Shown here in pieces: positions 9,423 to 36,243 of a DNA stretch of 39,550 nt. Each line of letters opens with the position of its first letter. The stretch's first letter is position 1. The notes below the pieces were generated by a model. The model saw only the letters and a list, made by a program, of their open reading frames with translations, made no database searches and was not told the DNA's origin. The stretch spans positions 1 through 39,550 of the forward strand of contig JASJCE010000002.1 of assembly GCA_030066155.1 (NCBI GenBank), read 5' to 3'. The translations under genes and the position numbers were made by a program. This DNA is from Desulfobacterales bacterium. GTDB taxonomy: Bacteria; Desulfobacterota; Desulfobacteria; Desulfobacterales; JAFDCJ01.

Positions 9423-10733
9423 CTAGCTCGCCTTCGGTATCTTGCGTTGATGGGGATCCAGACCGCCGTGATCGATGGCCTCATCGAGCTGGGACTGCAT
9501 CGACGAATCCGTGAAATGCTCCAGCTTGTGAGCTGGCAGATGAACATCGGCGGCGCAGGCCGAAAATTGTTCGCACAGATACGCTTCCCAAAGCCGATGT
9601 GAGCGGATGAGCCCCTGGCCTTCCTTCCGGCCGATGGTTGTCAGGCTCAACCGGTCACCGTTGCCGCTCAGACGCCTTTTCCGTTTCAAATCCCACATGG
9701 CAATGGTCGCGATAAATCCCAGCTTGAGACCTTTGCGGACATCTTCAGTTTTCAGGGGAGTGGCGTCCGGTGCAGCCAATTCCTGATAGCGATACAAAAA
9801 TCCCAGGATATCGTCCCGGGTGATCTTCAATGTCAACATCGCCTGGCTCAGAGTGCGACTGACTAAACCGTGGCGGGGTGCGAAGAGGAAAATCACAAGG
9901 AATAAACCACCGGCAGCTACTCCCATCATTCCGGCTGTGCTCGTATCGCGGAACCCGAACCAAACCGGGACAGTGATCGCGAGGATATGCCCCAAAACCG
10001 CAGATATCATTGCAATGAGCAAGCTGATAACAATCATTGCCGGGAGTCGATCCGTCAGCAGATGGGCACCGGCAGCCGGCACAATGAGCATGGCAATGAC
10101 CAGAATGCTGCCGACGCTTTCAAATGCTGCCACCGTGGTGGCCGCCACAAATGTCATCAGAACATAATGCATAACGTTTGCATTGATGCCCATGGTGGTC
10201 GCCAAAGCCGGATCAAAGGTCGTAATTTTTAATTCTTTGTAGAAGATGACAATCAAAAGCGCGTTCATCAGCAGCATGAAGGCATTTGTCAGGGCGGCGG
10301 AAGGGATTTCGTAACCCAAAATCTCGTATGTTTCCAGAGGCGTAAGTTCGATGGCACCATACAGCACGCACCCCGGATCCAGATCAACATGATCGGCTGC
10401 CTGGCGTATCAGAATCAATCCCACGGCGAAGAGGGTCGTAAAGACAACGCCCATGGACGCGCCTTTGTCCAGATTGCTCAGTTTGGAGATTCCCTGCACC
10501 ATAAACGCCGTCATGACACCGATGATAACCGCTCCGATTAACATGGGAAGGCTTTCCCGGCTGCCGGTGATCAGAAACGCAATCGCGAGGCCGGGGAGTA
10601 CGGCATGGCTGATGGCATCGCCCATCATGCTCATGCGACGCAAAACCAGGAAATTACCCGGTAGCGCGCAGGCCATGGCACTGAGCGCACCGGTAACGAC
10701 GATCCAGGTATCCAGAAAAGTCCAATCCATCAA
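9423..10733 (-). CDS. Metal (Mn-type) ABC transporter permease fused to a DtxR/MntR-like C-terminal domain
   Basis: A 436-residue fusion. Residues 1 to about 290 are an ABC-3 (ZnuB/MntB/TroC) permease with about eight membrane segments and the family elements GNFLVLRRMSMMGDAISHAVLPG and FESVGSILVIAMLIVPAA. From about 305 a degenerate winged-helix region leads to a DtxR-type dimerisation/metal domain: SHRLWEAYL, VHLPAHKLEH, then LDPHQRKIP. Ligand-like residues H379, E383, H398, E405 and H406 have exactly the spacing of DtxR H79, E83, H98, E105 and H106. It is the last gene of the transport operon, separated from the other permease by 349 bp that include a 161-bp repeat. Chlamydial YtgC-YtgR is a known precedent for this fusion; whether the domain acts as a metal gate or a cleavable repressor is open. 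Confidence 0.9.
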   Translation of the reverse strand: MMDWTFLDTWIVVTGALSAMACALPGNFLVLRRMSMMGDAISHAVLPGLAIAFLITGSRESLPMLIGAVIIGVMTAFMVQGISKLSNLDKGASMGVVFTTLFAVGLILIRQAADHVDLDPGCVLYGAIELTPLETYEILGYEIPSAALTNAFMLLMNALLIVIFYKELKITTFDPALATTMGINANVMHYVLMTFVAATTVAAFESVGSILVIAMLIVPAAGAHLLTDRLPAMIVISLLIAMISAVLGHILAITVPVWFGFRDTSTAGMMGVAAGGLFLVIFLFAPRHGLVSRTLSQAMLTLKITRDDILGFLYRYQELAAPDATPLKTEDVRKGLKLGFIATIAMWDLKRKRRLSGNGDRLSLTTIGRKEGQGLIRSHRLWEAYLCEQFSACAADVHLPAHKLEHFTDSSMQSQLDEAIDHGGLDPHQRKIPKAS

Positions 10734-11082
10734 TACTGTCCCTCGTTATTGCCTTAATTGAATCTTAACTAGCGTTTTTGTTAACATGTCGTTGGAATTT
10801 GGGATGGTTTCAGGTTTCAGTGTTCAGATTTCAGAAATCAATCATTTGCTGACCTCCTGTGAAACTTCAAGCAGATGAAGATATGTGGAATGGATTCGAT
10901 TTTTATTATTTTTTATTTAGACAGGATTAACAGGATTATCAGGAATTTTTTCGCCTGCGGCGAGGGGCCTTTCGGCCGACGGCCGCATTATCCAAATGAT
11001 CCTGTTGATCTTGTCCGATTATTTTCTTTAAGATAAGAATCCATTCCTCTTTTTCTTTCAAAAGCTATAGTTTCTTACTTAA
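10734..11082. other. Intra-operon spacer carrying a 161-bp inverted-repeat module
   Basis: There is no gene between the two permease genes. It contains GTTTCAG/TTCAG units at 10809-10835, an AGGAGG-like GACCTCCTGTG segment (complement at 10851-10861), and the repeat module at 10887-11047. It should be transcribed as part of the operon mRNA unless a promoter lies within. Confidence 0.6.
10887..11047 (-). repeat. MITE-like 161-bp module, copy 1
   Basis: The ends GGAATGGATTC (10887-10897) and GAATCCATTCC (11037-11047) are a perfect 11-bp inverted repeat. Inside, ACAGGATTAACAGGATTATC pairs with TGATCCTGTTGATC further on, and the centre holds small GC hairpins (CGCC-TGC-GGCG and a GGCC-rich stem). 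A copy of equal length lies inverted at 26127-26287. Homology continues past the right inverted end to about 11094, covering the stop codon of the 11083 permease gene. No transposase is encoded. Confidence 0.8.
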
Positions 11083-12564
11083 TCAAACTGGCCGCGCTGC
11101 GGCCAGCTCATGTGGGCTGGGCGGCATTTTAACATCTTTCAGATCCGGCAGCATTTTTTCCAGCTTCCTGATCATCTCTTGATCCAGCACATGCTCGATG
11201 GCATCGGCGCCCCAGTCGACCTGACTTGGCGCGATATCCGCGTGGGTAATCAGATAGGCTTCCCACAACCGATGTTTGCGAACGATCTGATAAGCTGCCT
11301 GCAGTCCCTTATCGGTCAGCTCGAACAGCTGATTCCCGTTGGTCTGAATCAGCCCTTCGGACCGGGCGGATTTCAGTGTTCTGTGCAACTGGCCGGAAGA
11401 CCAGGCCCGGGCTGACAGAAGATGGTTAAAATGGATGTTGGTTGTCACCTGATTTGTCGACGGTGTCGAACCGCGTGATTCATAATATTCGTACAGCTCC
11501 CTCAGCAGGTTTTCGGCGGCTACCTTGTTGCTTAAGCGGCGCCGCTCGATTAACTGACGGAGCAGGCCGCTGGCCGATCCGAAAGCCAGACTCAAAAAGA
11601 AGACCACTGCCGCCATGATGACGATAACCGCTCCAGCCGGCAGGTTGGCCATGAGTGCGCTGAAAGCGGAGCCAAGCAAGCCGCTGAGCGCGCCGAAAAA
11701 ACCGGATAGAATCAACATATTTTTTAAGCGGTGTGTCCAGAATCTGGCTGCTGAAGGCGGTATGATCAAAAGTGCGACCACCAGTATCAGGCCAACAGCC
11801 TGCAACCCGATAACTGTCACGATAACGACCAGGGTCATCATCAGAAAATCCAATCGAATTACCGGCCAGCCCTGGGTTGCTGCATAGGAATAGTCGAAGC
11901 AGATCAGGCTAAACTCTTTAAATAGGATGATGCAGACAACGGCCGAACCTAAAGCCGTCGCACCGATCAATACCGCATCAAAAAACAGCATCGACGCGGT
12001 CTTGCCATAGATGAAGGAAGAAAGCCCGGCCGCCGTCCCGGTTTCCATGCGAGAAGCGATGCCGAGCAAAGCAATACCGAATCCAAAGTAGACGCTGAGA
12101 ACAATCCCGAGGGCAGCATCATCCTTGAGGCGGGAATACTTCTGAATCAGAATGACCGAAGCCGTACCAAGTACCGAAAAGACCGCTGCCCCGGTGATTA
12201 ATGCAATCAGGTTTTTGCCTTCACCACCCAGGTGGGTAATCAGTATGAAGGTCAATGCAATACCGGGCAGGGTTGCATGGCTGAGAGTGTCGCTGAGCAG
12301 CGCGCGCTTGCGCAGCAGCAGGAACGTGCCGACCAGGCCGGCCGCCAGCCCAAGTAACGTCGTCCCGATAACGACGACGCGTGTATTGTAATCCTGCAGC
12401 GTCAGAACGCGAATAACTTCGGGAAAAGTCGGCAGTTCCATTAGATGTCCTGACAAACCGGCAGATTCGGCAGGTATCGGCATCAGAACACCTATCAAGC
12501 AGACCGCCAGGGCTGCAGGGTGAAGAAATGCTGTGAAATCCGGTGTCTTCCCAATCGACTTCAT
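11083..12564 (-). CDS. Metal (Mn-type) ABC transporter permease fused to winged-helix plus DtxR/MntR-like domain
   Basis: A 493-residue fusion. After an N-terminal hydrophobic segment and a short loop, an ABC-3 permease with about eight membrane helices runs to residue ~340 (FLLLRKRALLSDTLSHATLPG; LQAVGLILVVALLIIPPSAARF). Residues ~345-428 look like a winged helix-turn-helix (LLRELYEYYESRG, SSGQLHRTLKSARSEGLI, LTDKGLQAA), followed by the DtxR-like dimerisation/metal segment KHRLWEAYL and VDWGADAIEHVL. H431, E435, D454, E457 and H458 fall at DtxR positions 79, 83, 102, 105 and 106, while the position-98 histidine is D450. The gene overlaps the ATPase gene by four bases. Its last codons and stop lie inside sequence homologous to the 26079-26287 repeat, so the C-terminus may have been altered by that repeat. 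Confidence 0.9.
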   Translation of the reverse strand: MKSIGKTPDFTAFLHPAALAVCLIGVLMPIPAESAGLSGHLMELPTFPEVIRVLTLQDYNTRVVVIGTTLLGLAAGLVGTFLLLRKRALLSDTLSHATLPGIALTFILITHLGGEGKNLIALITGAAVFSVLGTASVILIQKYSRLKDDAALGIVLSVYFGFGIALLGIASRMETGTAAGLSSFIYGKTASMLFFDAVLIGATALGSAVVCIILFKEFSLICFDYSYAATQGWPVIRLDFLMMTLVVIVTVIGLQAVGLILVVALLIIPPSAARFWTHRLKNMLILSGFFGALSGLLGSAFSALMANLPAGAVIVIMAAVVFFLSLAFGSASGLLRQLIERRRLSNKVAAENLLRELYEYYESRGSTPSTNQVTTNIHFNHLLSARAWSSGQLHRTLKSARSEGLIQTNGNQLFELTDKGLQAAYQIVRKHRLWEAYLITHADIAPSQVDWGADAIEHVLDQEMIRKLEKMLPDLKDVKMPPSPHELAAARPV

Positions 12565-13439
12565 TGGTGGGTTTCCTTGGTCCCGGACGGCAGGCGCGGG
12601 TCTTTGGAAAACTCGTAAACCGCATCCGACAGCAGCGTCAGCTTGCCTCCGTAGGTCTTCTTCAAATTTTCTTCGGTAAACACGTCTTCAGTGGCACCGT
12701 GTGCGACAACCCGCATATTCAGCAATACGACATAGTCAAAGTAGTTGGGGACTGTCTGCAAATCATGGTGAACCACCAAACATGTCTTGCCGGCATCTTT
12801 GAGCTCTTTCAAGAGAGCGACAATTGCGCGTTCCGTGGCGACATCCACCCCGACAAATGGTTCATCCATCATATAGACCCGCGCGTCCTGGGCCAGCGCC
12901 CGGGCTAAAAATACCCGCTGCTGCTGTCCCCCCGACAGTTGGCTGATTTGACGTTTTGCATAAGGTGTCATGTCAACCTTTTCCAGGGATTCCATGGCCT
13001 TCTCCCGGTAACGCCGGCTTACCGGCGAAATCCAGCCGATCTTGCGATACAATCCCATGGCGACGACGTCGAGGGCATTGACCGGAAAATCCCAGTCAAC
13101 GCTCTCGCGCTGGGGGACATAACCCACCAGGTGGCGTTGCCGCTCATAGGACTTGCCATATATCATGACGTTTCCGGAAGCCCGCGGCACCAGATCAAGC
13201 GCGGCTTTGATCAAGGTCGTCTTACCGGCGCCGTTCGGCCCGACCACAGCGATGAGTTTGCCTTCCGGCACTGCCAGATTTACATCCCACAGTACCGGTT
13301 TGCGGTGATAGGCAACGGTCAGATCGTGAATCCAGACCGGAGCCGACTCCGCGGAAAGGCCATTGGCGCCCGTCCCGGATGAGGACGGCTCGACGCTATC
13401 ATGGTTATTCATAGCTGTTGAACGTTGCATGGATGACAT
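12561..13439 (-). CDS. Metal ABC transporter ATP-binding protein
   Basis: A 292-residue ABC ATPase of the MntA/ZnuC/TroB type that energises manganese (or zinc/iron) import through the neighbouring permeases. Walker A is GPNGAGKTT (67-75), the Q-loop is YVPQRESVDWDFP around Q110, the signature is LSGGQQQR (168-175), Walker B is VYMMDEPF with D192-E193, and the H-loop is in LVVHHDL (224-225). The segment RESVDWDFP is characteristic of manganese-type ATPases. The N-terminal ~30 residues before APVWIHDLTVAY are a low-complexity Ser/Gly extension, so the true start could be internal. The stop overlaps the permease start by four bases. A short-unit array lies just upstream, between this gene and the binding-protein gene. 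Confidence 0.92.
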   Translation of the reverse strand: MSSMQRSTAMNNHDSVEPSSSGTGANGLSAESAPVWIHDLTVAYHRKPVLWDVNLAVPEGKLIAVVGPNGAGKTTLIKAALDLVPRASGNVMIYGKSYERQRHLVGYVPQRESVDWDFPVNALDVVAMGLYRKIGWISPVSRRYREKAMESLEKVDMTPYAKRQISQLSGGQQQRVFLARALAQDARVYMMDEPFVGVDVATERAIVALLKELKDAGKTCLVVHHDLQTVPNYFDYVVLLNMRVVAHGATEDVFTEENLKKTYGGKLTLLSDAVYEFSKDPRLPSGTKETHQ

Positions 13440-13462
13440 GGTGTTTTACCCGCAGATAGAAG

Positions 13463-13591
13463 TTATTGGTTACTGGTTACTGGTTATTGTTTATTGGTTA
13501 CTGGTTATTAGTTATTAGTTATTAGTTATTGGCTATTGGTTGTTGGTTATTCCATTTATTCTAATAACGAATGACCAACAACAATTAACCA
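13463..13591. repeat. GGTTATTGGTTACTGG array with inverted partner
   Basis: Some thirteen copies of a 7-bp GGTTACT/GGTTATT unit fill 13463-13553, followed at 13560-13591 by complementary units (AATAACGAATGACCAACAAC and neighbours). The array lies in the 165-bp gap between the binding-protein and ATPase genes of one operon, so the transcript would carry a foldback there. Confidence 0.7.
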
Positions 13592-13604
13592 CATCCCGTG
13601 GATG

Positions 13605-14603
13605 TCAGTGCGCCATAGGAAGTTTGCCGTTCAACCCGCCGGTCGGGGCCTGTCCTCCCAGGGCCCGGGCAATAGTGGTGGCATTGTGATCGATCATGCC
13701 GATGTAAGTGCCCTCATAGGTTCCGGCTTTTCCCATGGCATCTGAAAAAAGTTCGCCTCCGATTCTGACCGACTGTCCGCGGGATTTGGCTCCCTCCAGC
13801 AGGGCCTTGACATTTTTATCCGAAACACTGGATTCCACGAAAACAGCCGGAATTTTTCGATCAACAAGCAAGTCGACGATGCGGTTGATGTCTTTCAAGC
13901 CGGCTTCGGATTCGGTTGAAATCCCCTGAATCCCCATCACTTCGATGCCGTATGCCCGGCCCATATATCGAAATGCGTCGTGGGCGGTGACCATGATTTT
14001 CTGGTCGGCCGGTATCGAACCGATGACCTTGGCAGCATAGGCATCCAGTGCCTCGAGCTTTTTGAGGTAGGCCGCGGAATTGGTCTTGTAGAATCCGCCA
14101 TTGACCGGATCAAATTCCGACAGCGCCGCAGCAACAACTTCAACCGCTTTCATCCAGCCTTTGACGTCCATCCAGACGTGGGGGTCACTGTGATTGGTCG
14201 TCGTATCTTCGATCAGATAGCTTTCTTTAAGAAGTTCAGTGACCGCATAGACCGGCCGCCGGCGCGAAATCTTAACGAGAACATCCGTCATTTGGCCCTC
14301 CAGCAGGAGGCCGGCATAGAACACGATGTCCGACTTGAGCAAGACGGCAACATCGCTGCGGGTCGGATTAAACAGGTGGGGATCAACTCCGGTGCCGATT
14401 ATATTGGTAACCTCGCCTTTGTCCCTGACGACCTCCTTGATAATATCGGCAATCATGCCCACCGTCGTTCCAACTTTGTACGGATATTTGCCTTTGTATT
14501 CCGCCTCAGCCGGCGCGACCGACGAGAAGAACACGACAATCAATAGAAAAGCCGTCCACAACATCATTTTAACCGGGTATTTTCCGTAAATTGCGACCTG
14601 CAT
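13605..14603 (-). CDS. Metal ABC transporter substrate-binding protein (Mn-type, MntC/TroA-like)
   Basis: A 332-residue cluster A-I binding protein that captures a divalent metal in the periplasm and delivers it to the permeases. An N-terminal membrane segment (MMLWTAFLLIVVFFSSVAPAEA) serves as signal peptide; the true start may be the Met at residue 13. Ligand candidates are H76 (GVDPHLFNPT) and H142 (DPHVWMDV), an acidic residue in AVFVESSVS and D in GMIDHN. The TAHDAFRYMGRAYG and GELFSDAMG-GTYEGTY segments are those of TroA/MntC proteins, and no long His-rich loop of the ZnuA type is present, which favours Mn or Fe over Zn. It is the first gene of the transport operon, directly after the operator/promoter region at 14656-14744. 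Confidence 0.92.
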   Translation of the reverse strand: MQVAIYGKYPVKMMLWTAFLLIVVFFSSVAPAEAEYKGKYPYKVGTTVGMIADIIKEVVRDKGEVTNIIGTGVDPHLFNPTRSDVAVLLKSDIVFYAGLLLEGQMTDVLVKISRRRPVYAVTELLKESYLIEDTTTNHSDPHVWMDVKGWMKAVEVVAAALSEFDPVNGGFYKTNSAAYLKKLEALDAYAAKVIGSIPADQKIMVTAHDAFRYMGRAYGIEVMGIQGISTESEAGLKDINRIVDLLVDRKIPAVFVESSVSDKNVKALLEGAKSRGQSVRIGGELFSDAMGKAGTYEGTYIGMIDHNATTIARALGGQAPTGGLNGKLPMAH

Positions 14604-14655
14604 ATACGCGCCTCCTATGAATAGACATGATTCTCAAAACGCAATTGAAAAACCT

Positions 14656-14744
14656 ATGGTAAGAACCAAATAAATTTTGTCAAACGAATAAAATATTTTA
14701 GTTTACCAAATTATATATTTTGGCAAACCAAAATATTTTAGTTT
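14656..14744 (-). promoter_or_regulatory. Promoter and candidate MntR operators of the Mn-transport operon
   Basis: On the minus strand TTGACA (14683-14678) and TACCAT (14661-14656) are 16 bases apart, about 55 bp from the binding-protein start. Just upstream lie three palindromes: TAAAATATTTTA at 14689-14700; a 26-bp palindrome at 14702-14727 with arms TTTACCAAA and TTTGGCAAA (one mismatch); and AAACCAAAATATTTTAGTTT at 14725-14744 (one mismatched pair). A perfect minus-strand TATAAT (14715-14710) sits in the centre of the middle palindrome. The arrangement suits repression by the MntR encoded next door; no binding has been shown. Confidence 0.6.
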
Positions 14745-14871
14745 GTGAATTTCGTTACCTACGAGCAATTCCGATATTTTTTGCTGAAACCTGACACCTG
14801 AAATCAGTTGGTCAAGGCAACTTCCGTTTTAAACCTTTCAGGATCGGGTATTTACTTTTGCGGCGGACAAA

Positions 14872-15549
14872 TTACACGGATAGGGGGCCGACCATAATTT
14901 CATCGGCCACATTGATGCCCAGGGTTCGAATCGGCGCCTGGCGCTGGGGGCCGACACGGATGCTCAACGGCCCCTTGAAGGGAGCTTTTTCGACAACGGT
15001 TACGACCGTTTCGAGGCGGATTCCCAATTCGTCCAGATACCTCAGCATTTCGGCATCACTGTGACGCACCCTTGCGATCCGAACCGATTCGCCTATCGGT
15101 GTGGCAGCCAGGGTTTGGAATTTATCCGCTTTCAGTTTACCGTCTTTTTCAGGTATCGGATCGCCGTGTGGATCGTATTGTGGGTGGTTTAAATATTCGG
15201 CAATTGCATCGGTCAGCCGGTCGGATATATGATGCTCGAGGTTTTCGGCTTCATCATGAACTTCATCCCAGGAAAAGCCCAGGACCTGATTGAGAAACGT
15301 TTCAAGCAAGCGGTGCCGGCGGATGACGTTCAGCGCCACTTTTTTTCCCCGGGGGGTTAAAGCGACACCTTTGTGGAGTTCATGGGAAACCATCTTGGGG
15401 CGCACACTCGACAGGCGTTTGATCATATCCGTCACCGATCCGGCCGTCACTCCCAGGGTTTGGGCCAGAATGGTCGTTTTCACCCGGCCACCCTGTTGCT
15501 GAATTTCGTAAATGGTTTTCAGGTATTTCTCGACGGTTTCGGTTTGCAT
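14872..15549 (-). CDS. mntR: MntR-like DtxR-family metal-dependent transcriptional regulator
   Basis: A 225-residue repressor with an N-terminal winged helix (VKTTILAQTLGVTAGSVTDMIKRLS, about 23-47), a dimerisation/metal domain and a C-terminal SH3-like FeoA domain (about 145-225). With the ATG at 15549 as start, ligands H79, E83, H98, E102, E105 and H106 carry exactly DtxR numbering, which supports this start over an in-frame one at 15660. Glu at position 102, where DtxR has Cys, is the manganese-selective pattern of MntR. The presence of the FeoA-like domain is DtxR/IdeR-like, so it is longer than the short Bacillus MntR. It probably senses cytoplasmic Mn and controls the transport operon that begins 268 bp downstream, via the palindromes at 14689-14744. 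Confidence 0.88.
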   Translation of the reverse strand: MQTETVEKYLKTIYEIQQQGGRVKTTILAQTLGVTAGSVTDMIKRLSSVRPKMVSHELHKGVALTPRGKKVALNVIRRHRLLETFLNQVLGFSWDEVHDEAENLEHHISDRLTDAIAEYLNHPQYDPHGDPIPEKDGKLKADKFQTLAATPIGESVRIARVRHSDAEMLRYLDELGIRLETVVTVVEKAPFKGPLSIRVGPQRQAPIRTLGINVADEIMVGPLSV

Positions 15550-15792
15550 GTGATGCAGTCTCTCTGTGACCGGGTAGAAAACTGAAAAAATATAATTACT
15601 CTTACTGGTAATATCTGACTCTGCAAAATCGGATCCCCTGCTCTCAACCGGTAACGGCAAGTTTCAAATTGCGGCAAACGAAGTAGGGCTAAAATAAGCT
15701 AGGCTCAGATTGATGTCAAATACATTGACTTCGTACCTGAATTCTGACACGTTTTAAAAATTCGAGACCAACTAAAACAGGGTGAACCACTG

Positions 15793-26609: not shown

Positions 26610-28016
26610 ATGATTACCAATAAGACATTTAACGAAATTAATATCGGTGACACCGCCAGCCTGGAGCGAACCTTAACCAAACGTGATGTGGACATGTTTG
26701 CGGTCATCAGCGGGGATATGAACCCCACCCATCTGAGCGATGAATATGCCCAGATGTTGCTCGAACGCCAGAAGGTCAGCGGCCACAGCATGTGGGGCGG
26801 TGCGTTGATATCGAGCCTCCTCGGCAATGACCTGCCTGGTCCGGGGACGGTCTACAAATCACAGCACCTGGAGTTTCACGGCGCCCTCGAGCTGGAAGAT
26901 ACGCTTACCGTGAGCATAACGGTCAAAGAAAAACGGGCGGCGGAAAATACGGTCATATTCGACTGTCAGGCTGTTAACCAGCGCAACGAGGAAATCATAT
27001 CGGGCATCGCCGAGGTTCGGGCTCCCTCCAAAAAGGCGAGCGGAGCGGGTGTGGCCGCCCATGACCTGACGTACCACGCGCGCCACGCATTTCGGGATCT
27101 CATTGAAAAAGTGCAGGATGACGATCCCATTTCGGTGGCGGTCGCGCATCCGTGCAGCAAAGCAGCCTTGGAAGGCGCCATCGATGCGGCTCGGGCTGAT
27201 ATTATTGAACCGGTGCTGGTGGGACCCGGGGCGCGCATCCGGCAGCTGGCCGATGAACTTGAGATCGACATCAGCCATTATGAGCTGGTAGATTCGCCTC
27301 ACAGCCATGCTTCTGCAGCAGAGGCGGTGTCTCTCTGCCGGGGCGGCCGGACCGAATCGCTGATGAAAGGCAGCCTGCACACGGACGAATTTATGTCGGC
27401 GATCCTGAAAAAAGAAACGGGCCTGCGAACCGCTTCGCGGGTCAGCCATGTCTTCATTCTCGATGTGCCGACCTATCCACGCCCCCTGTTTTTAACCGAC
27501 GCGGCCATCAATATCTATCCGGATCTGGAGGGCAAAATTCACATTGTGAACAATGCCGTGAGTCTGGCCCATGCCCTGGGTATAGAGACGCCCAGAGTGG
27601 CGATCCTGTCGGCCGTTGAAACCATCAATCCCAAAATCCCGTCCACTCTGGAGGCCGCCTCGCTCTGTAAAATGGCTGATCGCGGGCAGATAGCCGGCGC
27701 GATACTGGATGGACCCCTGGCGTTTGATAATGCCATCAGCAAGGAAGCCGCCCTGATCAAAGGCATTCAATCCGAAGTCGCCGGACAAGCTGACATTTTT
27801 GTGGTGCCGGATCTGGAGGCCGGCAACATGCTGGCCAAACAGCTGACCTACCTGATCGATGCCGATGCGGCCGGAATTGTGGTGGGAGCGCGGGTGCCCG
27901 TCATTTTAACCAGCAGGGCGGATTCAGCACGGGCGCGACTAACCTCATGTGCCGTTGCGGCAGCTGCGGCAATGGCCAAGCGTACAGGCGCCAAGGGCAT
28001 CAATGCGTCGGTATGA
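26610..28016 (+). CDS. Bifunctional MaoC-type enoyl-CoA hydratase / phosphotransacylase
   Basis: A 468-residue cytoplasmic fusion. Residues 1 to ~145 are a MaoC hot-dog hydratase (hydratase motif with D36 and H41 in FAVISGDMNPTHLSDEYA), which interconverts enoyl-CoA and (R)-3-hydroxyacyl-CoA. Residues ~160-468 are a PTA/PTB phosphotransacylase (VAVAHPCSKAALEGAIDAA; LKKETGLRTASRVSHVFILD; GAILDGPLAFDNAISKEAA; VPDLEAGNMLAKQLTYLIDADAAGIVVGARVPVILTSRADS), which swaps CoA for phosphate. The C-terminal pattern is the short PTB-like form. The acyl kinase gene follows after 242 bp. AGGAAAG precedes the ATG. The fusion channels an enoyl/acyl-CoA toward acyl phosphate; acyl chain length is unknown. Confidence 0.93.
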   Translation: MITNKTFNEINIGDTASLERTLTKRDVDMFAVISGDMNPTHLSDEYAQMLLERQKVSGHSMWGGALISSLLGNDLPGPGTVYKSQHLEFHGALELEDTLTVSITVKEKRAAENTVIFDCQAVNQRNEEIISGIAEVRAPSKKASGAGVAAHDLTYHARHAFRDLIEKVQDDDPISVAVAHPCSKAALEGAIDAARADIIEPVLVGPGARIRQLADELEIDISHYELVDSPHSHASAAEAVSLCRGGRTESLMKGSLHTDEFMSAILKKETGLRTASRVSHVFILDVPTYPRPLFLTDAAINIYPDLEGKIHIVNNAVSLAHALGIETPRVAILSAVETINPKIPSTLEAASLCKMADRGQIAGAILDGPLAFDNAISKEAALIKGIQSEVAGQADIFVVPDLEAGNMLAKQLTYLIDADAAGIVVGARVPVILTSRADSARARLTSCAVAAAAAMAKRTGAKGINASV

Positions 28017-28045
28017 ACCTTGAACACCCCGACGTTTTTTACCCA

Positions 28046-28204
28046 AGCCGGCGAAGCCGGAAATGACTATTGACTATTGAATAATGAATATTTGTGGTCC
28101 GCCTTCGGCGGATCGATCTTATACCGATTCTCACCAAAATAGTCGGGTTTGCGTTACTCAAATCCTGCGCGAACATGATTTGATTTCAATAAATAGGGCC
28201 TAAA
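28046..28204 (+). repeat. Composite dispersed repeat, copy C
   Basis: It opens with AAGCCGGCGAAGCCGGAAAT, continues through GACTATTGACTATTGAATA units and a TCCGCC-TTC-GGCGGA hairpin (about 28098-28112), and closes with ACTCAAATC, CATGATTTGATTTCAATAA and GGGCCTAA (28153-28204). The closing 50 bp match copy B (21092-21138). It lies directly ahead of the acetate-kinase gene. Confidence 0.65.
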
Positions 28205-28258
28205 TTGAGCGGTTCCAATTAGAGGGGCGGAGTAATTAGATTCAAGTGGAAGTAATCT

Positions 28259-29458
28259 ATGCAAGGATGCATTTCAGTCATTAACAGTGGATCGTCAAGC
28301 ATCAAGTTTTCGGTTTACGACCATGTCGAAACTCAGGAGTTGAGATTCGTTTTTGGGGGACAGGTGGAGGGAATCGGTGTGGCCCCGCGCTTTAAAGCTC
28401 GAGCTAACCATGGCGAAATTCTCGCCGAGAAAACCTGGGATCACGGTCCCGATGTCAACCATGAAAGTCTGATGGGCTATCTCATCGGTTGGATTCGAGA
28501 AAACCGGCAACAGCTAAATCTTGAATTGACGGGAGTCGGACACCGGGTCGTCCATGGTGGAAGTGCCTACAGCAGCCCGGTCAAAGTGGATGACGCCGTA
28601 TTGCGAAGACTTGAAAAGTATATCCCCCTGGCGCCGCTGCATCAGCCTCACAATCTTGGTCCCATCCGGTCGGTTATGAAGCTGGGTGCCGATATTCCGC
28701 AGGTCGCCTGTTTCGACACCGCTTTTCATCGCACCAATCCGCCGCTATCCCAGATTTTCGCCCTGCCGCGTCGGTATACGGACGAAGGCATTCGGCGCTA
28801 CGGGTTTCATGGCCTCTCCTATGAGTATATTTCCCGCAGGCTGCAGGTACTGGATTCCAAAGTCGCGGCAGGGCGGGTTGTGGTCGCGCATCTGGGCAGC
28901 GGTGCCAGTATGTGTGCCCTGCAAGGCGGAAGAAGTATTGCCAGTACCATGGGATTTTCAGCAATGGACGGTATTCCGATGGGAACCCGTCCCGGCAATC
29001 TGGATCCGGGGGTGGTGCTGTACCTGATGCAGGAAAAGGGAACGACGCCGGATGAGCTGGCGGATTTGTTTTACAAGCGTTCCGGTCTGCTCGGCATCTC
29101 CGGAGTCAGCAATGACATGCGGATCCTGTTGGAGAGCAGTGATCCGCAGGCGGAGGAAGCTATTGGCGTATTTGTGTATCGCATTCAGCGGGAACTCGGC
29201 TCTCTGGCTGCTGCTCTGGGTGGACTGGACGCGCTGGTGTTTACGGCCGGCGTCGGTGAAAATTCGCCTGCCATTCGTGCCCGGGTTTGTGAGGGGGCCC
29301 AATGGCTTGGCCTGCAGTTGGATCCGGCCGCAAACGACCAGAATCTGCTAAAAATCAGTACGCCGGAAAGCCAGGTCTCGATCTGGGTCATACCAACCAA
29401 CGAGGAATTAATGATCGCGACCCATACACGGAATGTTCTGCTTGGAGCACAGGAATGA
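28259..29458 (+). CDS. ackA: Acetate/acyl kinase (AckA family)
   Basis: A 399-residue ASKHA-fold kinase that converts acyl phosphate and ADP to the carboxylate and ATP. Family signatures are the N-terminal INSGSSSIKFSVYD, HRVVHGG, the catalytic-Asp segment ACFDTAFH, HLGSGASMCA, AMDGIPMGTRPGNLDPGV and FTAGVGENS. Length is normal. It follows the MaoC/phosphotransacylase fusion and, with it, forms a PTA-Ack (or Ptb-Buk-like) energy-conserving pair; propionate or butyrate may be used instead of acetate, which sequence alone cannot tell. TGGAAG precedes the ATG. The composite repeat copy C occupies the upstream gap. Confidence 0.95.
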   Translation: MQGCISVINSGSSSIKFSVYDHVETQELRFVFGGQVEGIGVAPRFKARANHGEILAEKTWDHGPDVNHESLMGYLIGWIRENRQQLNLELTGVGHRVVHGGSAYSSPVKVDDAVLRRLEKYIPLAPLHQPHNLGPIRSVMKLGADIPQVACFDTAFHRTNPPLSQIFALPRRYTDEGIRRYGFHGLSYEYISRRLQVLDSKVAAGRVVVAHLGSGASMCALQGGRSIASTMGFSAMDGIPMGTRPGNLDPGVVLYLMQEKGTTPDELADLFYKRSGLLGISGVSNDMRILLESSDPQAEEAIGVFVYRIQRELGSLAAALGGLDALVFTAGVGENSPAIRARVCEGAQWLGLQLDPAANDQNLLKISTPESQVSIWVIPTNEELMIATHTRNVLLGAQE

Positions 29459-29682
29459 CAGCCGTAGCGATAGAGAGAACATTTTATACCTAAATTTTTT
29501 CGGTAAACTTCGATGCCTAAAAGTGTCTAATCCGCAAACTCAATCATCACTATTGAAAACTACGTGCAAAATACCGGTTATAATACGATGACGGATGAAT
29601 TATAAATACGAATGCAGTTCTTTTTTACACAAATAACAAATAACCAATCACTAATAACTTGTTTCTAGAAAGGAAGCATGAC

Positions 29683-30444
29683 ATGCGCCGTAAAAACGCT
29701 CTGGTAGTGGGAATTGCCAACCAGGAAAGCATCAGCGCCGGAATCGCAAAGGAATTGAGTGTAAATGGCTATAACATCATTCCGACCTATCTGAACGAAA
29801 AGGCCTTGCCCTTCGTCAAAGAGGTAACCGATCAACTCGGAGTAGATAAGCTGTTTCCCTTCAAGGTCGGCAACGACGATCAGCTGCAGGCCATTATAGA
29901 TTACCTCCAGTCCGCGGGCCTGCGATTGGATGCTTTTGTGCATGGGATCGCATTTGCATCGGAGATCAAGAAGGATTTGCACGAGGTTTCCTGGCAAAGC
30001 TTTAAAGACTCCACCCGGGTTTCGTCTTTTTCCATGGTCGAAATAACGGGTAAACTCATTGCCGCAGATGTCCTTAATCCGGGCGGCTCTATTCTGACCC
30101 TGTCCTATATCGGGTCTCATCTGGCGGTTGAAGGCTACAACATGATGGGACCGGTAAAGAGCATCCTGGAGGCCCTGGTCAGGGGACTTGCCAGTGAACT
30201 CGGCGGCAAAGGCATCCGCGTGAATGCGATCTCACCCGGACCGGTCATGACGCGAGCTGCCGGCGGCATTAAAGGGTTCTCCAATCTGCTCGAGGTATCC
30301 CGCAACGCCAGTCCGCTCAGCCGGACCGCCGAACTGGATGACATCGGCAAGCTGGCCTTCGAAGTGATCACCAACCCGTCCATCACCGGGTCGGTGTACC
30401 TGGTCGACTGCGGATCCAGTGTGACGATCCGAGTGCCATCATAA
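29683..30444 (+). CDS. fabI: FabI-like enoyl-ACP/enoyl-CoA reductase
   Basis: A 253-residue short-chain reductase of the FabI branch, which reduces the double bond of an enoyl thioester with NAD(P)H. The N-terminal nucleotide site is ALVVGIANQESISAGIA, the FabI-type replacement of the Gly-rich loop. Active-site residues are Y142 (TLSYIGS), Y152 and K159 (GYNMMGPVK), at the spacing of E. coli Y146, Y156 and K163. NAISPGPVMTRAAGGI matches the FabI substrate loop. The ATG at 29683 is used because AGAAAGGAAG precedes it; an upstream TTG at 29659 is unlikely. In this cluster the substrate may be a CoA thioester rather than ACP. A divergent paralogue follows 25 bp downstream. Confidence 0.88.
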   Translation: MRRKNALVVGIANQESISAGIAKELSVNGYNIIPTYLNEKALPFVKEVTDQLGVDKLFPFKVGNDDQLQAIIDYLQSAGLRLDAFVHGIAFASEIKKDLHEVSWQSFKDSTRVSSFSMVEITGKLIAADVLNPGGSILTLSYIGSHLAVEGYNMMGPVKSILEALVRGLASELGGKGIRVNAISPGPVMTRAAGGIKGFSNLLEVSRNASPLSRTAELDDIGKLAFEVITNPSITGSVYLVDCGSSVTIRVPS

Positions 30445-30469
30445 CCTGACACCTAAGAACGGGGGTAAA

Positions 30470-31231
30470 ATGGAAACTAAAAATGCACTGATCGTGGGCA
30501 TCAGAGATGAAGACAGTATCTGTCACGCTATAGCCGGTGAAATTAAACGCGCTGGCTATAATATATATGCGACCTATGAAGATGAGGACACCTATCCCTC
30601 CGTCAGTCGGGTGGCCGAAGCGATGGGAATCAAAAAGCTGTTCCCTTACGATGCCCGCCGGGATGAGGATTTGGAAGCATTTACATCGGCTGTAAGGCAG
30701 GAAGGCATTTCCCTGGACATTCTGGTGCACGGGATTTCCTACTCCACGGCCGAAGGCGCCAAACTTGACCTGCCGTTGCTGGACGTGACCTGGGAAGAGT
30801 TCACCGATGCCATTCGCGTGGGCGCATTTTCGCTGGCGGAAATCTCGGGCGGACTGCTGGACGTGTTCAAGGACGACGCGTCCATTCTGGCGGTAACCCT
30901 GCGCTGGAGCAAAGTCGCGGTACCGAGATTCAATGTCGTCAGTGCCACTAAGGCGGCTTTGGAGTCCATCATCAGAGGCCTGGCCCAGTCGTTGGGAAAC
31001 GCCAAAAAGATCCGGGTTAACGGCATCTCACCGGGCTTTGTCAGCACCTACTCTCTTTCCAAGATCGGCAACCGTCTCGAACTTCTGGAGCAGGCCAAAA
31101 TCAAATCGCCGTTGAAAACCAATGTGCGCAAGGAGAATATCGCCAGCCTGGCTGTCAGCATTCTAGAAAACCCATCCATTACGGGAATGATTTATCCCAT
31201 TGACGCCGGCGTGGACATCATGGGAGTGTAA
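30470..31231 (+). CDS. FabI-like paralogue lacking both active-site tyrosines
   Basis: A 253-residue protein of the same length and layout as the preceding FabI-like enzyme (ALIVGIRDEDSICHAIAGEI; VNGISPGFVSTYSLS; ITGMIYPIDAG). At the catalytic Tyr-x6-Lys it has F154 and K161 (RFNVVSATK), and at the first Tyr position it has L144 within AVTLRWSK. Lacking both tyrosines, it probably cannot perform the normal FabI reduction. It may be a structural partner of the active paralogue in a mixed tetramer, bind ligand as a sensor, or use another chemistry. GGGGG lies ahead of the ATG, and the 25-bp gap indicates co-transcription. The frame is intact with normal coding character, so it is not an evident pseudogene. 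Confidence 0.85.
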   Translation: METKNALIVGIRDEDSICHAIAGEIKRAGYNIYATYEDEDTYPSVSRVAEAMGIKKLFPYDARRDEDLEAFTSAVRQEGISLDILVHGISYSTAEGAKLDLPLLDVTWEEFTDAIRVGAFSLAEISGGLLDVFKDDASILAVTLRWSKVAVPRFNVVSATKAALESIIRGLAQSLGNAKKIRVNGISPGFVSTYSLSKIGNRLELLEQAKIKSPLKTNVRKENIASLAVSILENPSITGMIYPIDAGVDIMGV

Positions 31232-31308
31232 ACTTCCGAGCCCAGAGGAGCCGGCCATGATCCGACTTGGAGTGTTCAATTGGCATTTAACTTGACCGGC
31301 GGTACTCT

Positions 31309-31340
31309 GGTTTCAGTGTTCAGTGTTCAGGTTTCAGCAC
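31309..31340. repeat. GTTTCAGTGTTCAG short-unit array
   Basis: Four imperfect TTCAGTG/TTTCAG units. The same words occur at 10809-10835 and, complemented, around 14780-14806 and 37366-37397, in each case between genes. Confidence 0.6.
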
Positions 31341-31412
31341 TGTTAATTGAGGTATTTAGATAGTTAAAAATAAATAAATTAACACAAGGACTACTGGAAA
31401 AGGAGAAAGAGT

Positions 31413-32207
31413 ATGTTAGATATAAAGAATGCAGTGGCCGTTATTACCGGCGGCGGGGGTGGAATTGGTTTAGAGGTTGCTAAATACTGGGTTCGCAACG
31501 GTGGGAAAGTGGTCATTGCCGACATTTCTCAGGATCTTCTGGATCAGGCCGAGGCTGAGCTCAAGTCCATCGGAGGCGACGTTCTTGCGGTGGTCACAAA
31601 CGTCACCAAAGAAGAAGACAACAGCAGGCTGGCCGATGCCGCCATCGAAAAATTCGGGCAAATTAACCTGGTGGCGCCTTTTGCGGGAATTATTCGCGAC
31701 GGCCTGATGGTTTCTCCGGACCGAGAGACCGGCAAGGTCACCCGCAAAATGTCGATCGCCGATTTCCAGATTGTTGTGGATATTAATCTGAGCGGTGTGT
31801 TTTTAACCGTTCGGGAATGCACCGAACGCATGATCAACCACGACTGCCATGGGTTGATCTGCTTAATTTCTTCCACCGGCTCTCTGGGAACCGCCGGACA
31901 GATAAACTATTCGGCGACCAAAGCGGCCATGTCCGTCATGCCCAAGGTTCTCACGGCCGAATTTTTTCGACGAAAGCTGGCGCACAAAATACGCTGTGTG
32001 GCGGTAGCGCCCGGATACGTCGGAACGGCGATGGTCAAGGGCATGAATCAAAAAGCGTTGGACGGAATTTTATCCCAGGTTCCCATCGGACGGCTGATCG
32101 AACCGGAAGAAGTTGCCCAGCTTGTGGCCGACATCTACCGGAATGAAGCCCTGGCAGGAGAGGTGTTTTTCATCCATGGCGGATTGAGACTCGGATCCAA
32201 GGGATGA
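31413..32207 (+). CDS. SDR-family 3-ketoacyl reductase (FabG/PhaB-like)
   Basis: A 264-residue classical short-chain dehydrogenase/reductase. The NAD(P) motif is TGGGGGIG (12-19), the catalytic Ser is in LISSTGS (153-156), and Y166 and K170 form YSATK. VAPGYVGTAM and the C-terminal GEVFFIHGGLRLG are standard SDR elements. D37 (VVIADIS) at the end of the second strand suggests NADH preference. By context it would reduce a 3-ketoacyl-CoA/ACP to a 3-hydroxyacyl thioester, the substrate of the MaoC domain; other SDR substrates are possible. AAAAGGAG precedes the ATG. It lies 181 bp after the FabI paralogue and 427 bp before the DUF3141 gene. Confidence 0.88.
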   Translation: MLDIKNAVAVITGGGGGIGLEVAKYWVRNGGKVVIADISQDLLDQAEAELKSIGGDVLAVVTNVTKEEDNSRLADAAIEKFGQINLVAPFAGIIRDGLMVSPDRETGKVTRKMSIADFQIVVDINLSGVFLTVRECTERMINHDCHGLICLISSTGSLGTAGQINYSATKAAMSVMPKVLTAEFFRRKLAHKIRCVAVAPGYVGTAMVKGMNQKALDGILSQVPIGRLIEPEEVAQLVADIYRNEALAGEVFFIHGGLRLGSKG

Positions 32208-32634
32208 TGTCCGCTTGCCGGAAGCAGTGCCTGGTCAGAGTTGATTGGTTCTGCCTTATTCAATAGAAGATTTTTAAATCCGAAGCACGAAATGCGAAAC
32301 CCGAAACAATATCGAATGACCGAAATTGAAATGCTCCAAGCAAAAGACACATCCGGCATTGCAAGGTAGGGGCTGTTTTTGTCATTAGAGCATTTGGTTT
32401 TTGAATTTGTTTCGAATTTCGACCTGCCCGCAATGCCTAAAAGCTCGTGCGAGGCAAATTTAAGCAATTGATAGATTGATAAGTGCTCACATCAACCCAT
32501 CGCTAATTGCATGGCAGACGGGTATTCGGATTTCGAATTTTTCGATTGTATTTGCCTAAATCATGCCCTCTGTGCTTAAGTTTAAGCCGGCCCTTCTGGG
32601 GTTGGATTTTAATCCTGAAAGAAAGGGAAGTCAT
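32208..32634. other. 427-bp spacer with long imperfect inverted repeat
   Basis: No gene. CGAAACCCGAAACAATATCG-type units with GAAATGCTC (about 32281-32339) are matched by GAGCATTTGG and GAATTTGTTTCGAATTTCG (about 32388-32421), so about 150 bp can fold back. An in-frame ATG at 32563 lies upstream of the chosen DUF3141 start. Confidence 0.55.
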
Positions 32635-34860
32635 ATGACAGCTACACAAAGCAACAACCAACCAATGGGCCGCAATCAACTGACCGAATATGTTGTTGAC
32701 GCCGGACAGCGTGCGATCCTGTTCTGGGACGCGATTCGCCAGCGTGGAAACCAATATCATGAACACATGGCACACGATACCCCGCACGTGCTGGATTACG
32801 AATACGAGCTGATTGTCGATGGTCGAACGTTGAGCCAACCGGTGAACTACGGCCTGGTGAAAATTATTCCTCCGAAAGGTGTCAAAATCGATGACCACAA
32901 ACGTCCTTTTGTGGTGGTCGATCCCCGCGCCGGCCATGGGCCCGGCATCGGCGGCTTCAAGGCCGACAGTGAAATCGGTGTGATACTCGCTGAGGGTCAT
33001 CCCTGCTACTTCATCGGGTTCTCGCCGGAACCCGAGCCGGGGCAGACAATCGAAGCCATCATGCGGGCAGAAGGCCAATTTCTAAAGCGGATCGTTGAGC
33101 TGCATCCAAAGGCGGACGGCAAACCGGTTGTCATCGGCAACTGCCAGGCGGGCTGGGCTGTCATGATGCTGGCGGCTACTTTCCCTGATCTATGTGGTCC
33201 GATTATTGCGGCGGGGGCGCCGGTTTCCTACTGGGCCGGCGTGCGCGGCGAGAATCCCATGCGCTACACCGGCGGCATGCTGGGAGGCAGCTGGCTGACG
33301 GCCCTGACCAGCGACTTGGGTAACGGCAAATTTGACGGCGCCTGGCTGGTGCAAAACTTTGAAGGGCTCAATCCGGCCAATACCCTGTGGTCGAAGCAGT
33401 ACAATCTCTATGCCAAGATCGACACCGAGATACCCCGCTATCTGGGATTTGAGCGCTGGTGGGGAGGTCACGTCATATTAGGCGGTGGCGAGATTCAGGA
33501 TATTGTCGACTATCTTTTTGTAGGCAACAAGCTCAGCACGGCCGGGATTCAGACATCGGACGGCCTGCGTGTGGATTTGAGAAATATCCGCGCGCCCATC
33601 GTCTGCTTCTGCTCAAAGGGCGACAACATCACCCCGCCGCAGCAGGCCCTGGGCTGGATCCTCGATCTTTACGACAGTGTCGACGATATTCGCGCCTCCG
33701 GGCAGACGATTATTTACGCCGTGCACGAGAGTGTCGGACATTTAGGTATCTTTGTCTCCGGCAGCGTTGCCAAAAAGGAGCACAGCGAGTTTACCAGCAA
33801 CATCGATTTTATCGACTGCCTGCCCCCCGGTTTATACGAGGCGGTAATGGAAAAGACATCCGCAGATACCGATAATGTGGATTTGGTGACCGGAGACTAT
33901 ATTTCCAGCTTCGAGCGGCGCACACTGGATGATATTCGTGCTTTGGGCGGCAATGATCTCGACGATGAGCTATGTTTCGCTGCCGTAGCGCGCCTGTCGG
34001 AGATCACTCATGGCATTTATCGCACTGCCGCTCAGCCATTTGTGCGCGCCATGGCGACCGAACAGTCTGCCGACTGGTTGCGCCGTATGCATCCATTGCG
34101 TTTGGGATACGAGCTTTTTTCCGATCACAACCCCCTGATGGCTTCCCTGCCGTCTGCTGCTCAGTGGGTGAAGGATCGTCGGGAGACGGCCGCGGCGGAC
34201 AATATCTTTTTGCAGTGGCAGAATATTTTTTCCGGCTACGTAACTCAAAGCCTCAACATTTATCGCGACTGGCGGGACATGATGATGGAGCAGATGTTTT
34301 TTGGCATCTACAGCCAACCCTGGCTTCAGGCTTTACTGGGTCTCCGGGCGTCCGACGACCCGCCGCGAATGAACCCGGGGCAGGAACCTGATCACCTGGC
34401 GCTCATCGAGCACCAAAAGAAGACCCTGCTGGCCAAGATGGATCAGGGTGGACCGCGCCGGGCCGTGATGCGGGGTCTGATTTACGTGCGCATGCCGGAA
34501 GGGAAAGTCGATGAACGGGTATTCGAAATGATCCGGCGCATTCGGGCCCAATTACCTGAAAAAAGAACGCTGGCCGAATTCAAGGAGGCTTTTCGCGAGC
34601 AGTTCTTTATGATCCTGCTGGATGAGCAACGGGCCGTGGCGGCGATTCCCACCCTGCTCAAAGGCCACCAGGACCAGGGATCCGAGCTGTTTGAGATGAT
34701 CCGCAAGGTCGCCACTGCCGGTGATCCGCTGGGCAAGGAAGCGCAGGGACGATTGACGGAAATCGAAAAGCTGTTCATTCCCCGGAAAGTCGTCAAACCC
34801 AAAAAGCCGAAAGCCAGGTCGAAGTCGGCAGGCGTCTCTAAAAGAAAAGCCGGACCTTGA
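32635..34860 (+). CDS. DUF3141 protein, PhaC-like alpha/beta-hydrolase
   Basis: A 741-residue cytoplasmic protein. The N-terminal ~400 residues are a PhaC-like alpha/beta-hydrolase: nucleophile elbow VIGNCQAGWA with C170 (the GxCxG form of PHA synthases), a charge-relay Asp in CFCSKGDNITPPQQ, and His in VHESVGHLGIF. The C-terminal half is all-helical and DUF3141-specific, ending in a Lys/Arg-rich tail (KKPKARSKSAGVSKRKAGP). No signal peptide. The ATG at 32635 follows AAAGGGAAG and is preferred to an upstream in-frame ATG at 32563. In other proteobacteria DUF3141 genes accompany phosphotransacetylase, acetate kinase and FabI genes, as here. It might transfer or hydrolyse 3-hydroxyacyl-CoA, possibly forming short polyester; that is inference. 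Confidence 0.88.
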   Translation: MTATQSNNQPMGRNQLTEYVVDAGQRAILFWDAIRQRGNQYHEHMAHDTPHVLDYEYELIVDGRTLSQPVNYGLVKIIPPKGVKIDDHKRPFVVVDPRAGHGPGIGGFKADSEIGVILAEGHPCYFIGFSPEPEPGQTIEAIMRAEGQFLKRIVELHPKADGKPVVIGNCQAGWAVMMLAATFPDLCGPIIAAGAPVSYWAGVRGENPMRYTGGMLGGSWLTALTSDLGNGKFDGAWLVQNFEGLNPANTLWSKQYNLYAKIDTEIPRYLGFERWWGGHVILGGGEIQDIVDYLFVGNKLSTAGIQTSDGLRVDLRNIRAPIVCFCSKGDNITPPQQALGWILDLYDSVDDIRASGQTIIYAVHESVGHLGIFVSGSVAKKEHSEFTSNIDFIDCLPPGLYEAVMEKTSADTDNVDLVTGDYISSFERRTLDDIRALGGNDLDDELCFAAVARLSEITHGIYRTAAQPFVRAMATEQSADWLRRMHPLRLGYELFSDHNPLMASLPSAAQWVKDRRETAAADNIFLQWQNIFSGYVTQSLNIYRDWRDMMMEQMFFGIYSQPWLQALLGLRASDDPPRMNPGQEPDHLALIEHQKKTLLAKMDQGGPRRAVMRGLIYVRMPEGKVDERVFEMIRRIRAQLPEKRTLAEFKEAFREQFFMILLDEQRAVAAIPTLLKGHQDQGSELFEMIRKVATAGDPLGKEAQGRLTEIEKLFIPRKVVKPKKPKARSKSAGVSKRKAGP

Positions 34861-35604: not shown

Positions 35605-35832
35605 ATGCGTGTTACAACAAAAGGACAGGTAACGATCCCGCAGCATATTCGTGAAAAATTAGGAATTGTTCCGGCTACTAATATAGAGTTTGTTGAGGAA
35701 AAAGGTCGGGTCTATATTGTCAAAAAGGAAGATCCGGAAAATCGGGGTAATAAATTCAGAAAATTGAGGAGCGTTGCAACCGTTAGAATGACAACCGATG
35801 AGATTATGGCCTTGACAAGGAAAGAGAAATGA
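35605..35832 (+). CDS. AbrB/MazE-type antitoxin
   Basis: A 75-residue swapped-hairpin AbrB-family DNA-binding protein. The whole fold is in residues 1-38: MRVTTKGQVTIPQHIREKLG, then a second strand pair (TNIEFVEEKGRVYIVKK). The C-terminal ~35 residues, ending TTDEIMALTRKEK, are the toxin-neutralising tail. TGGAGG lies 6 bases before ATG 35605; an in-frame upstream ATG at 35545 would add 20 residues without support. The stop overlaps the PIN-toxin ATG (ATGA), the usual antitoxin-toxin coupling. It should bind the PIN protein and repress its own promoter through the inverted repeat at 35564-35585. Confidence 0.88.
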   Translation: MRVTTKGQVTIPQHIREKLGIVPATNIEFVEEKGRVYIVKKEDPENRGNKFRKLRSVATVRMTTDEIMALTRKEK

Positions 35833-36243
35833 GGGGAATTCTGGTAGATTCGAATGTTATTCTGGACATTTTTCTGGATGATCCCAACTGGGCCGAATGG
35901 TCGGAATCAAAATTGGAGAAACTCAGCTCGGCTTCAAATTTATTTATCAACCCCGTTGTGTACTCCGAAGTGTCCACCGGTTTCGATAAGGATAGAGGAC
36001 CTGGAGTCCGCCTTGAACCATGGTGGTTTTCAGATGCTTGAAATACCGAAGGAGGCACTGTTTTTTGCCGGTAAGGCATTTTTTGAATATCGAAAGAAAA
36101 AGGGCGTCAAAAGATTTCCGTTACCGGATTTCTATATCGGTGCCCAGGCCGCAATTTTGAGAATGGACCTGGGCACTCGCGATGAATCGAGATACCGAAC
36201 CTATTTCCCCACCGTCAATTTAATATGCCCCAAGAAAATGTAA
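35829..36243 (+). pseudogene. PIN-domain (VapC-type) toxin, frameshifted
   Basis: The gene is read in two frames. The first (from ATG 35829) gives MRGILVDSNVILDIFLDDPN through NPVVYSEVSTGFDK, with the first PIN acidic residues in VDSN and SEVS, then runs into a stop at 36041. The other frame gives IEDLESALNHGGFQMLEIPK through LPDFYIGAQAAIL and TRDESRYRTYFPTVNL, with the remaining acidic residues (PDFYIGA, TRD). Removing one G from the AAGGATA at 35988-35994 restores a protein of about 137 residues, a normal PIN length. It is thus a single 1-bp insertion, either a recent mutation that inactivates the RNase or a sequencing/assembly error. It overlaps the antitoxin stop by four bases. Confidence 0.82.

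Follow-up and report, generated by a model that had tools for sequence, protein, structure and literature searches.

Genes for DUF3141 proteins with PTA, AckA and FabI neighbours are widespread, with no settled function in the literature that we searched, and in the order DUF3141-PTA-AckA-FabI they stand with small gaps on plasmids of Sinorhizobium meliloti, Rhodobacter and Rhizobium. Here we describe a related cluster at positions 26610-34860 of a 39,550-nucleotide stretch (hereafter the window) from a Desulfobacterales bacterium, contig JASJCE010000002.1 of assembly GCA_030066155.1, a draft genome of 6.66 Mb that is 87% complete. It comprises six genes on the forward strand, which in order code for a MaoC-PTB fusion, an AckA-type kinase, two FabI-like proteins (FabI1 and FabI2), a short-chain dehydrogenase/reductase (SDR) and a DUF3141 protein; no open reading frame (ORF) among them has an internal stop, and Pfam and NCBIfam searches bear out the family names given in a first-pass annotation of this DNA. 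Judging from sequence, the core of the cluster (MaoC-PTB, AckA, FabI and DUF3141) is an already known, conserved gene set, and what is chiefly new is the nature of the “second FabI”, a degenerate but conserved companion of FabI1.

The counterparts in S. meliloti (CP050559) and Rhodobacter sp. CZR27 share with the window the DUF3141 subfamily (57-60% identity), the transferase, an AckA sub-type with alanine at position 232, a FabI and the placement of adjacent genes on a single strand. In the window, however, a MaoC domain is fused to the transferase, the gene order is different, an SDR gene is added, and two FabI-like genes, FabI1 and the degenerate FabI2, stand in place of one canonical FabI. 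The passage from acyl-phosphate to ATP also recalls the clostridial Ptb-Buk system, the window transferase being nearer to PTB than to PTA, but here the kinase is of the AckA family and an (R)-specific MaoC domain and FabI replace crotonase and Bcd/Etf. A literature search on this gene cluster returned nothing on point. The first-pass annotation had noted PTA-AckA-FabI-DUF3141 groupings in other proteobacteria, and a neighbourhood comparison finds them co-conserved across Desulfobacterota and Alphaproteobacteria. The order AckA-FabI-DUF3141-MaoC-PTB recurs in four Desulfobacterales genomes (G036, G107, G162 and G215). Of 242 genomes of the order, 11 encode MaoC-PTB proteins of the window kind, and in nearly all of the 11 the gene has AckA, DUF3141 or FabI next to it; four genomes besides the window combine the fusion with AckA and the FabI pair. 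Among 58 relatives, the DUF3141 subfamily of the window has a patchy distribution. In five loci (the window, L091, L094, L096 and L097) the FabI slot is occupied by FabI1-FabI2, so that the pair replaces the single FabI of the cluster.

FabI1 (29683-30444) and FabI2 (30470-31231) match FabI-type SDR models (NF005717, 221 bits; NF006266, 152 bits). With residue numbering and alignment anchored on E. coli FabI, the catalytic-type FabI1 has Tyr146, Tyr156 and Lys163 in 10 of 10 sequences, whereas both tyrosines are gone from all 11 FabI2 orthologues: position 156 is Phe in ten (including the window) and Leu in one, and position 146 is Leu (as in the window), Phe or Ala. Lys163 is present in all 11. 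Asp64, which we take to be an adenine contact, is present in FabI2 and replaced in FabI1 by K, E, V, Q, R or A. FabI2 also bears the Gly/Ser-Ile motif of the cofactor site and a conserved Arg-Trp pair near the lost Tyr146. Its AlphaFold model (predicted local distance difference test, pLDDT, 79) has the FabI fold, with 2wyu as the best match in the PDB (TM score 0.85, E 3.9e-23), and the best 60 PDB matches for the pair are all enoyl reductases. Orthologues of FabI2 (63-87% identity) occur in eight genomes of the order, with a contig-end fragment in G185, and at 10 named loci, some of them from those same eight genomes; a phylum-wide search found none in the other 394 genomes of the phylum. 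Wherever the locus is long enough FabI2 lies directly behind FabI1, and it was not found without it. Both genes are under purifying selection, with omega of 0.06-0.14 (NG86) where dS was measurable, values that are rough as several dS lie near or above 1. The distance matrices of the two proteins correlate (Mantel r 0.88, with 0 of 10,000 permutations as high), although shared descent alone would also produce this. In the tree FabI2 forms one clade (100/100) and the two proteins together are set apart from the single FabIs (100/100), whereas FabI1 as one group receives support of only 75/65 and long branches are present.

Two simple accounts of the pair were rejected: that of two independent FabI reductases by the loss of both tyrosines from FabI2, and that of a decaying pseudogene by the low omega together with 11 intact orthologues. 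The notion of a second FabI-like protein as a further reductase thus falls. Based on the absence of the tyrosines, the purifying selection and the constant company of FabI1, we propose a heteromeric reductase, most likely with FabI2 as a pseudoenzyme subunit that would shape or regulate FabI1 within a mixed FabI1/FabI2 oligomer. A precedent may be BbsCD of anaerobic toluene degradation, reported to be a heterotetrameric SDR with inactive subunits (von Horsten et al., cited in PMC10818641). The likeness lies in two adjacent SDR genes of which one has no catalytic residues while both are conserved, an arrangement that FabI1/FabI2 displays; BbsCD, however, is a hydroxyacyl-CoA dehydrogenase, whereas the present pair is of FabI type and its heteromer is proposed from the genes. 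Alternatively, FabI2 might be an active enzyme with altered chemistry, for example on another acceptor, working in sequence with FabI1. The retained Lys163, Asp64 and cofactor motif, the strong purifying selection and the Arg-Trp motif would all suit such an enzyme, yet the proton-donor tyrosine is absent from every orthologue and FabI2 is never seen without FabI1, and we consider it unlikely. Returning to the pseudoenzyme, we tentatively suggest, at somewhat short of an even bet, that sulfate reducers possess an enoyl-thioester reductase heteromer composed of an Asp64-less catalytic FabI and an obligate, Asp64-bearing, tyrosine-less FabI-derived pseudoenzyme, and that it is partly dedicated to converting polyhydroxybutyrate (PHB) to butyrate with a gain of ATP. 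A literature search on FabI pseudoenzymes returned nothing on point; if the proposal is true, the pair would be without precedent, in the literature searched, as a reductase of FabI type that has an inactive but conserved partner, and it would exemplify complementary residue loss between duplicates.

The pair might instead modify fatty acids or lipids as an enoyl-acyl carrier protein reductase whose position near the PTB-AckA genes is incidental. Both members are of the FabI family, pair-bearing genomes have no other clear full-length FabI (none was found in the window's genome besides the pair), and six loci have the pair by itself, with no MaoC-PTB or AckA nearby: three in Desulfoluna species, two in Desulfobacterales metagenome-assembled genomes (MAGs) and one in a Hahella MAG. 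Its function is thus not tied to the PTB-AckA route. On the other side, the pair holds the FabI position of the cluster in five loci, some relatives do without it, and FabV-type sequences are present in the window's genome (G000:C367:4-336, a fragment at a contig end, L166) and, in full length and without any FabI, in G002 of the same genus. As G007 also has no FabI, and the fragment is the probable housekeeping enoyl reductase of the window's genome, the pair is unlikely to play that part in this genome or genus, and we hold the lipid-modification account to be improbable. A search for FabK-type proteins gave sub-cut-off matches only. In Desulfoluna, where no FabV was found, the pair may be the housekeeping enzyme. 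Genomes with a stand-alone pair encode DUF3141 proteins elsewhere. Among them is the Hahella sp. MAG, whose pair (L098, 6305-7851) lies on a contig binned as gammaproteobacterial, either through transfer or through a binning error.

The first gene of the cluster (26610-28016; PF01575 and PF01515) matches NF006045 with 689 bits, and its MaoC part matches PF01575 with 44 bits. The MaoC domain contains a GDMNPTH motif with the D-x4-H spacing of the PhaJ-type catalytic motif, the catalytic residues of PhaJ being Asp31 and His36 (PMC4823750). The transferase domain scores 344 bits with the PTB model TIGR02706, short of its curated cut-off of 410, against 75 bits with the pta model TIGR00651. The kinase (28259-29458; PF00871, 371 bits) matches the AckA-family model TIGR00016 above cut-off (367 bits), whereas the butyrate-kinase models TIGR02707 and NF002834 give 49 and 77 bits, below their cut-offs of 289 and 222. 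In M. thermophila numbering the catalytic residues R91, D148, R241 and E384 are present, and all 13 cluster kinases compared have Ala at position 232, where M. thermophila and the other AckA of the genome (contig C538) have Pro. The window kinase has the Ala232, LHQP (here LHQPHN) and GLSYE signatures of the cluster sub-type. Pro232, with Val93 and Leu122, is a determinant of acetate binding (PMC4390882), and Val93 hinders butyrate in Salmonella AckA (PMC3475010). The acyl pocket is thus altered at position 232, but Val93 is unchanged, and butyrate is a putative substrate.

The DUF3141 gene (32635-34860; PF11339, 936 bits) starts at 32635, which has a good ribosome-binding site, and not at the upstream ATG at 32563, which has none. 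Its description as a PhaC-like protein with a cysteine nucleophile is supported by the G-N-C-Q-A-G nucleophile box and by a predicted Cys170-Asp330-His369 triad that is invariant in nine homologues. The Cys, Asp and His and a weak match to the class III PhaC model TIGR01836 (24 bits, E 1.5e-5) relate it to the class III polyhydroxyalkanoate (PHA) synthase PhaC/PhaE; it differs in having a long, helical C-terminal part, no PhaC_N domain and no adjacent phaE in the window. The C-terminal part has no significant Pfam match, and a profile of the protein has none in the PDB. The genome's own class III PhaC/PhaE genes lie outside the cluster, on contig C139. Elsewhere PHA genes adjoin the cluster, with phaE-phaC-phasin-phaR directly behind it in G036 and PHA genes beside it in Desulfofustis (L094).

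The SDR (31413-32207; PF00106), a probable 3-ketoacyl-CoA reductase of FabG/PhaB type, scores below the curated FabG/PhaB cut-offs (NF006072, 230 against 298 bits; TIGR01829, 133 against 302), and its assignment thus rests on family and neighbourhood. Close homologues (67-87%) were found in 54 of the order's 242 genomes, and the neighbourhoods read contain phaE, phaC, phasin, phaR or a PHA-associated alpha/beta hydrolase in L135, L136, L137, L139 and L094. It usually lies among genes for PHA synthesis, and among these neighbourhoods it is joined to DUF3141 in the window order in only one other genome (G106, L131); it is best explained, from these sequences, as a recruit of PhaB type that came to lie beside DUF3141 and not as a constant member of the set. 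The first-pass annotation had read the cluster as one complete pathway with an added SDR and a second FabI; the core stands as a co-conserved unit, the second reductase does not, and fixed membership of the SDR is weakly supported. Nor is the pathway complete from acetyl-CoA, as the cluster contains no thiolase. In the SDR neighbourhoods a protein of about 520 residues, resembling alpha/beta hydrolases and with hardly any Pfam match (L094, 19206-20756; L062, 568-2184; also L136 and L139), recurs beside phasin, phaR and the PhaB-like SDR in Desulfobacterales and is possibly an unrecognised PHA enzyme.

In light of these families, we propose that the cluster is an energy-conserving PHB/C4 outlet producing butyrate and ATP, with FabI2 as a conserved pseudoenzyme partner, a reading that we regard as evenly balanced between right and wrong. 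DUF3141 would act at the interface of polymer and CoA thioester, making or, likelier here, releasing (R)-3-hydroxybutyryl-CoA, for which the SDR would offer an alternative supply from acetoacetyl-CoA. The MaoC domain would dehydrate this to crotonyl-CoA, FabI1 with NADH would reduce it to butyryl-CoA, the PTB domain would exchange CoA for phosphate, and the kinase would convert butyryl-phosphate to butyrate and ATP. With external electron acceptors scarce, such a route would serve as an electron sink and gain one ATP for each C4 unit. Among published precedents, the FabI of E. coli takes enoyl-CoA as a substrate and reduces it in engineered cells of that species (PMC11048500), enoyl-CoA is the intermediate by which hydratases of the PhaJ type mobilise PHA (PMC4823750), and thiolysis of PHB to 3-hydroxybutyryl-CoA has been seen in vitro, with its mechanism in vivo unclear (PMC7147478). 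A literature search on conversion of PHB to butyrate with butyryl phosphate returned nothing on point. The earlier suggestion that acetoacetyl-CoA could be reduced to butyrate with conservation of ATP gains from the co-conserved core, the non-standard kinase pocket and the class III PHA synthase elsewhere in the genome, and the C4 substrate on which it depends is presumptive. In the Desulfobacterota version of the gene set, the MaoC and PTB-like domains, the adjacent PHA genes and the altered kinase pocket all favour conversion of a C4 polyester to butyrate with formation of ATP. Several observations weigh against the outlet: a Pfam search of DUF3141 found PF11339 and no PhaC_N; its AlphaFold model, built from four sequences, was too poor (pLDDT 45) for a fold search; acetate and propionate also figure in the names of the transferase and kinase models, and Val93 is retained; the FabI pair occurs apart from the other genes; the SDR is loosely attached; and the genes are loosely spaced.

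The kinase and transferase might run in the opposite direction, activating 3-hydroxybutyrate or butyrate to a CoA ester that DUF3141 would polymerise, in a salvage of short acids into polyester. In the engineered Buk-Ptb-PhaC route an acid is phosphorylated, made into a CoA ester and polymerised, with the same set of enzymes as here; every step is reversible, and G036 and L094 have PHA genes close to the cluster. However, the co-conserved enoyl reductase, whether single FabI or pair, yields a saturated acyl-CoA, which is not a PHA monomer and is unusable by PHA synthases, and this counts against a purely polymer-building role. Furthermore, Bradyrhizobium diazoefficiens PhaC2 (bll6073), a microaerobic FixK2 target that may belong to DUF3141, reportedly lacks synthase activity (PMC10888616). 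We therefore doubt the salvage direction and prefer the butyrate outlet.

The gaps between the window genes (242, 224, 25, 181 and 427 bp, in gene order) do not make co-transcription evident, and a scan found promoter- and terminator-like sites at a count not above the shuffled-DNA expectation; relatives are mostly tighter, and the sister locus L091 keeps the window order with small gaps, so co-transcription is plausible. That the cluster is a chance neighbourhood of unrelated genes, as these gaps, the noise-level sites and the separate standing of the SDR and FabI pair in other genomes might suggest, is very improbable and largely ruled out, at the level of gene order, by the co-conservation seen in L091 and in the near-constant neighbours of the rare MaoC-PTB.

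CoA-transferase-domain proteins of about 650-690 residues were observed near the PTB/AckA cluster of Desulfofustis (L094, 4385-6448), on another contig of the window's genome (L063, 6713-8677) and, in G167 (L141), beside an SDR homologue. By eye, an ORF for an AbrB/MazE-like antitoxin is followed in the window (35605-36243, forward strand) by a PIN-like toxin whose frame is seemingly broken near 36000, the downstream ORF alone having no Pfam match. On the reverse strand (9423-15660), again by eye, the window encodes a metal ABC transporter, with a substrate-binding protein, an ATPase and two permeases that have C-terminal winged-helix-like extensions, its genes lying behind a DtxR/MntR-like regulator.

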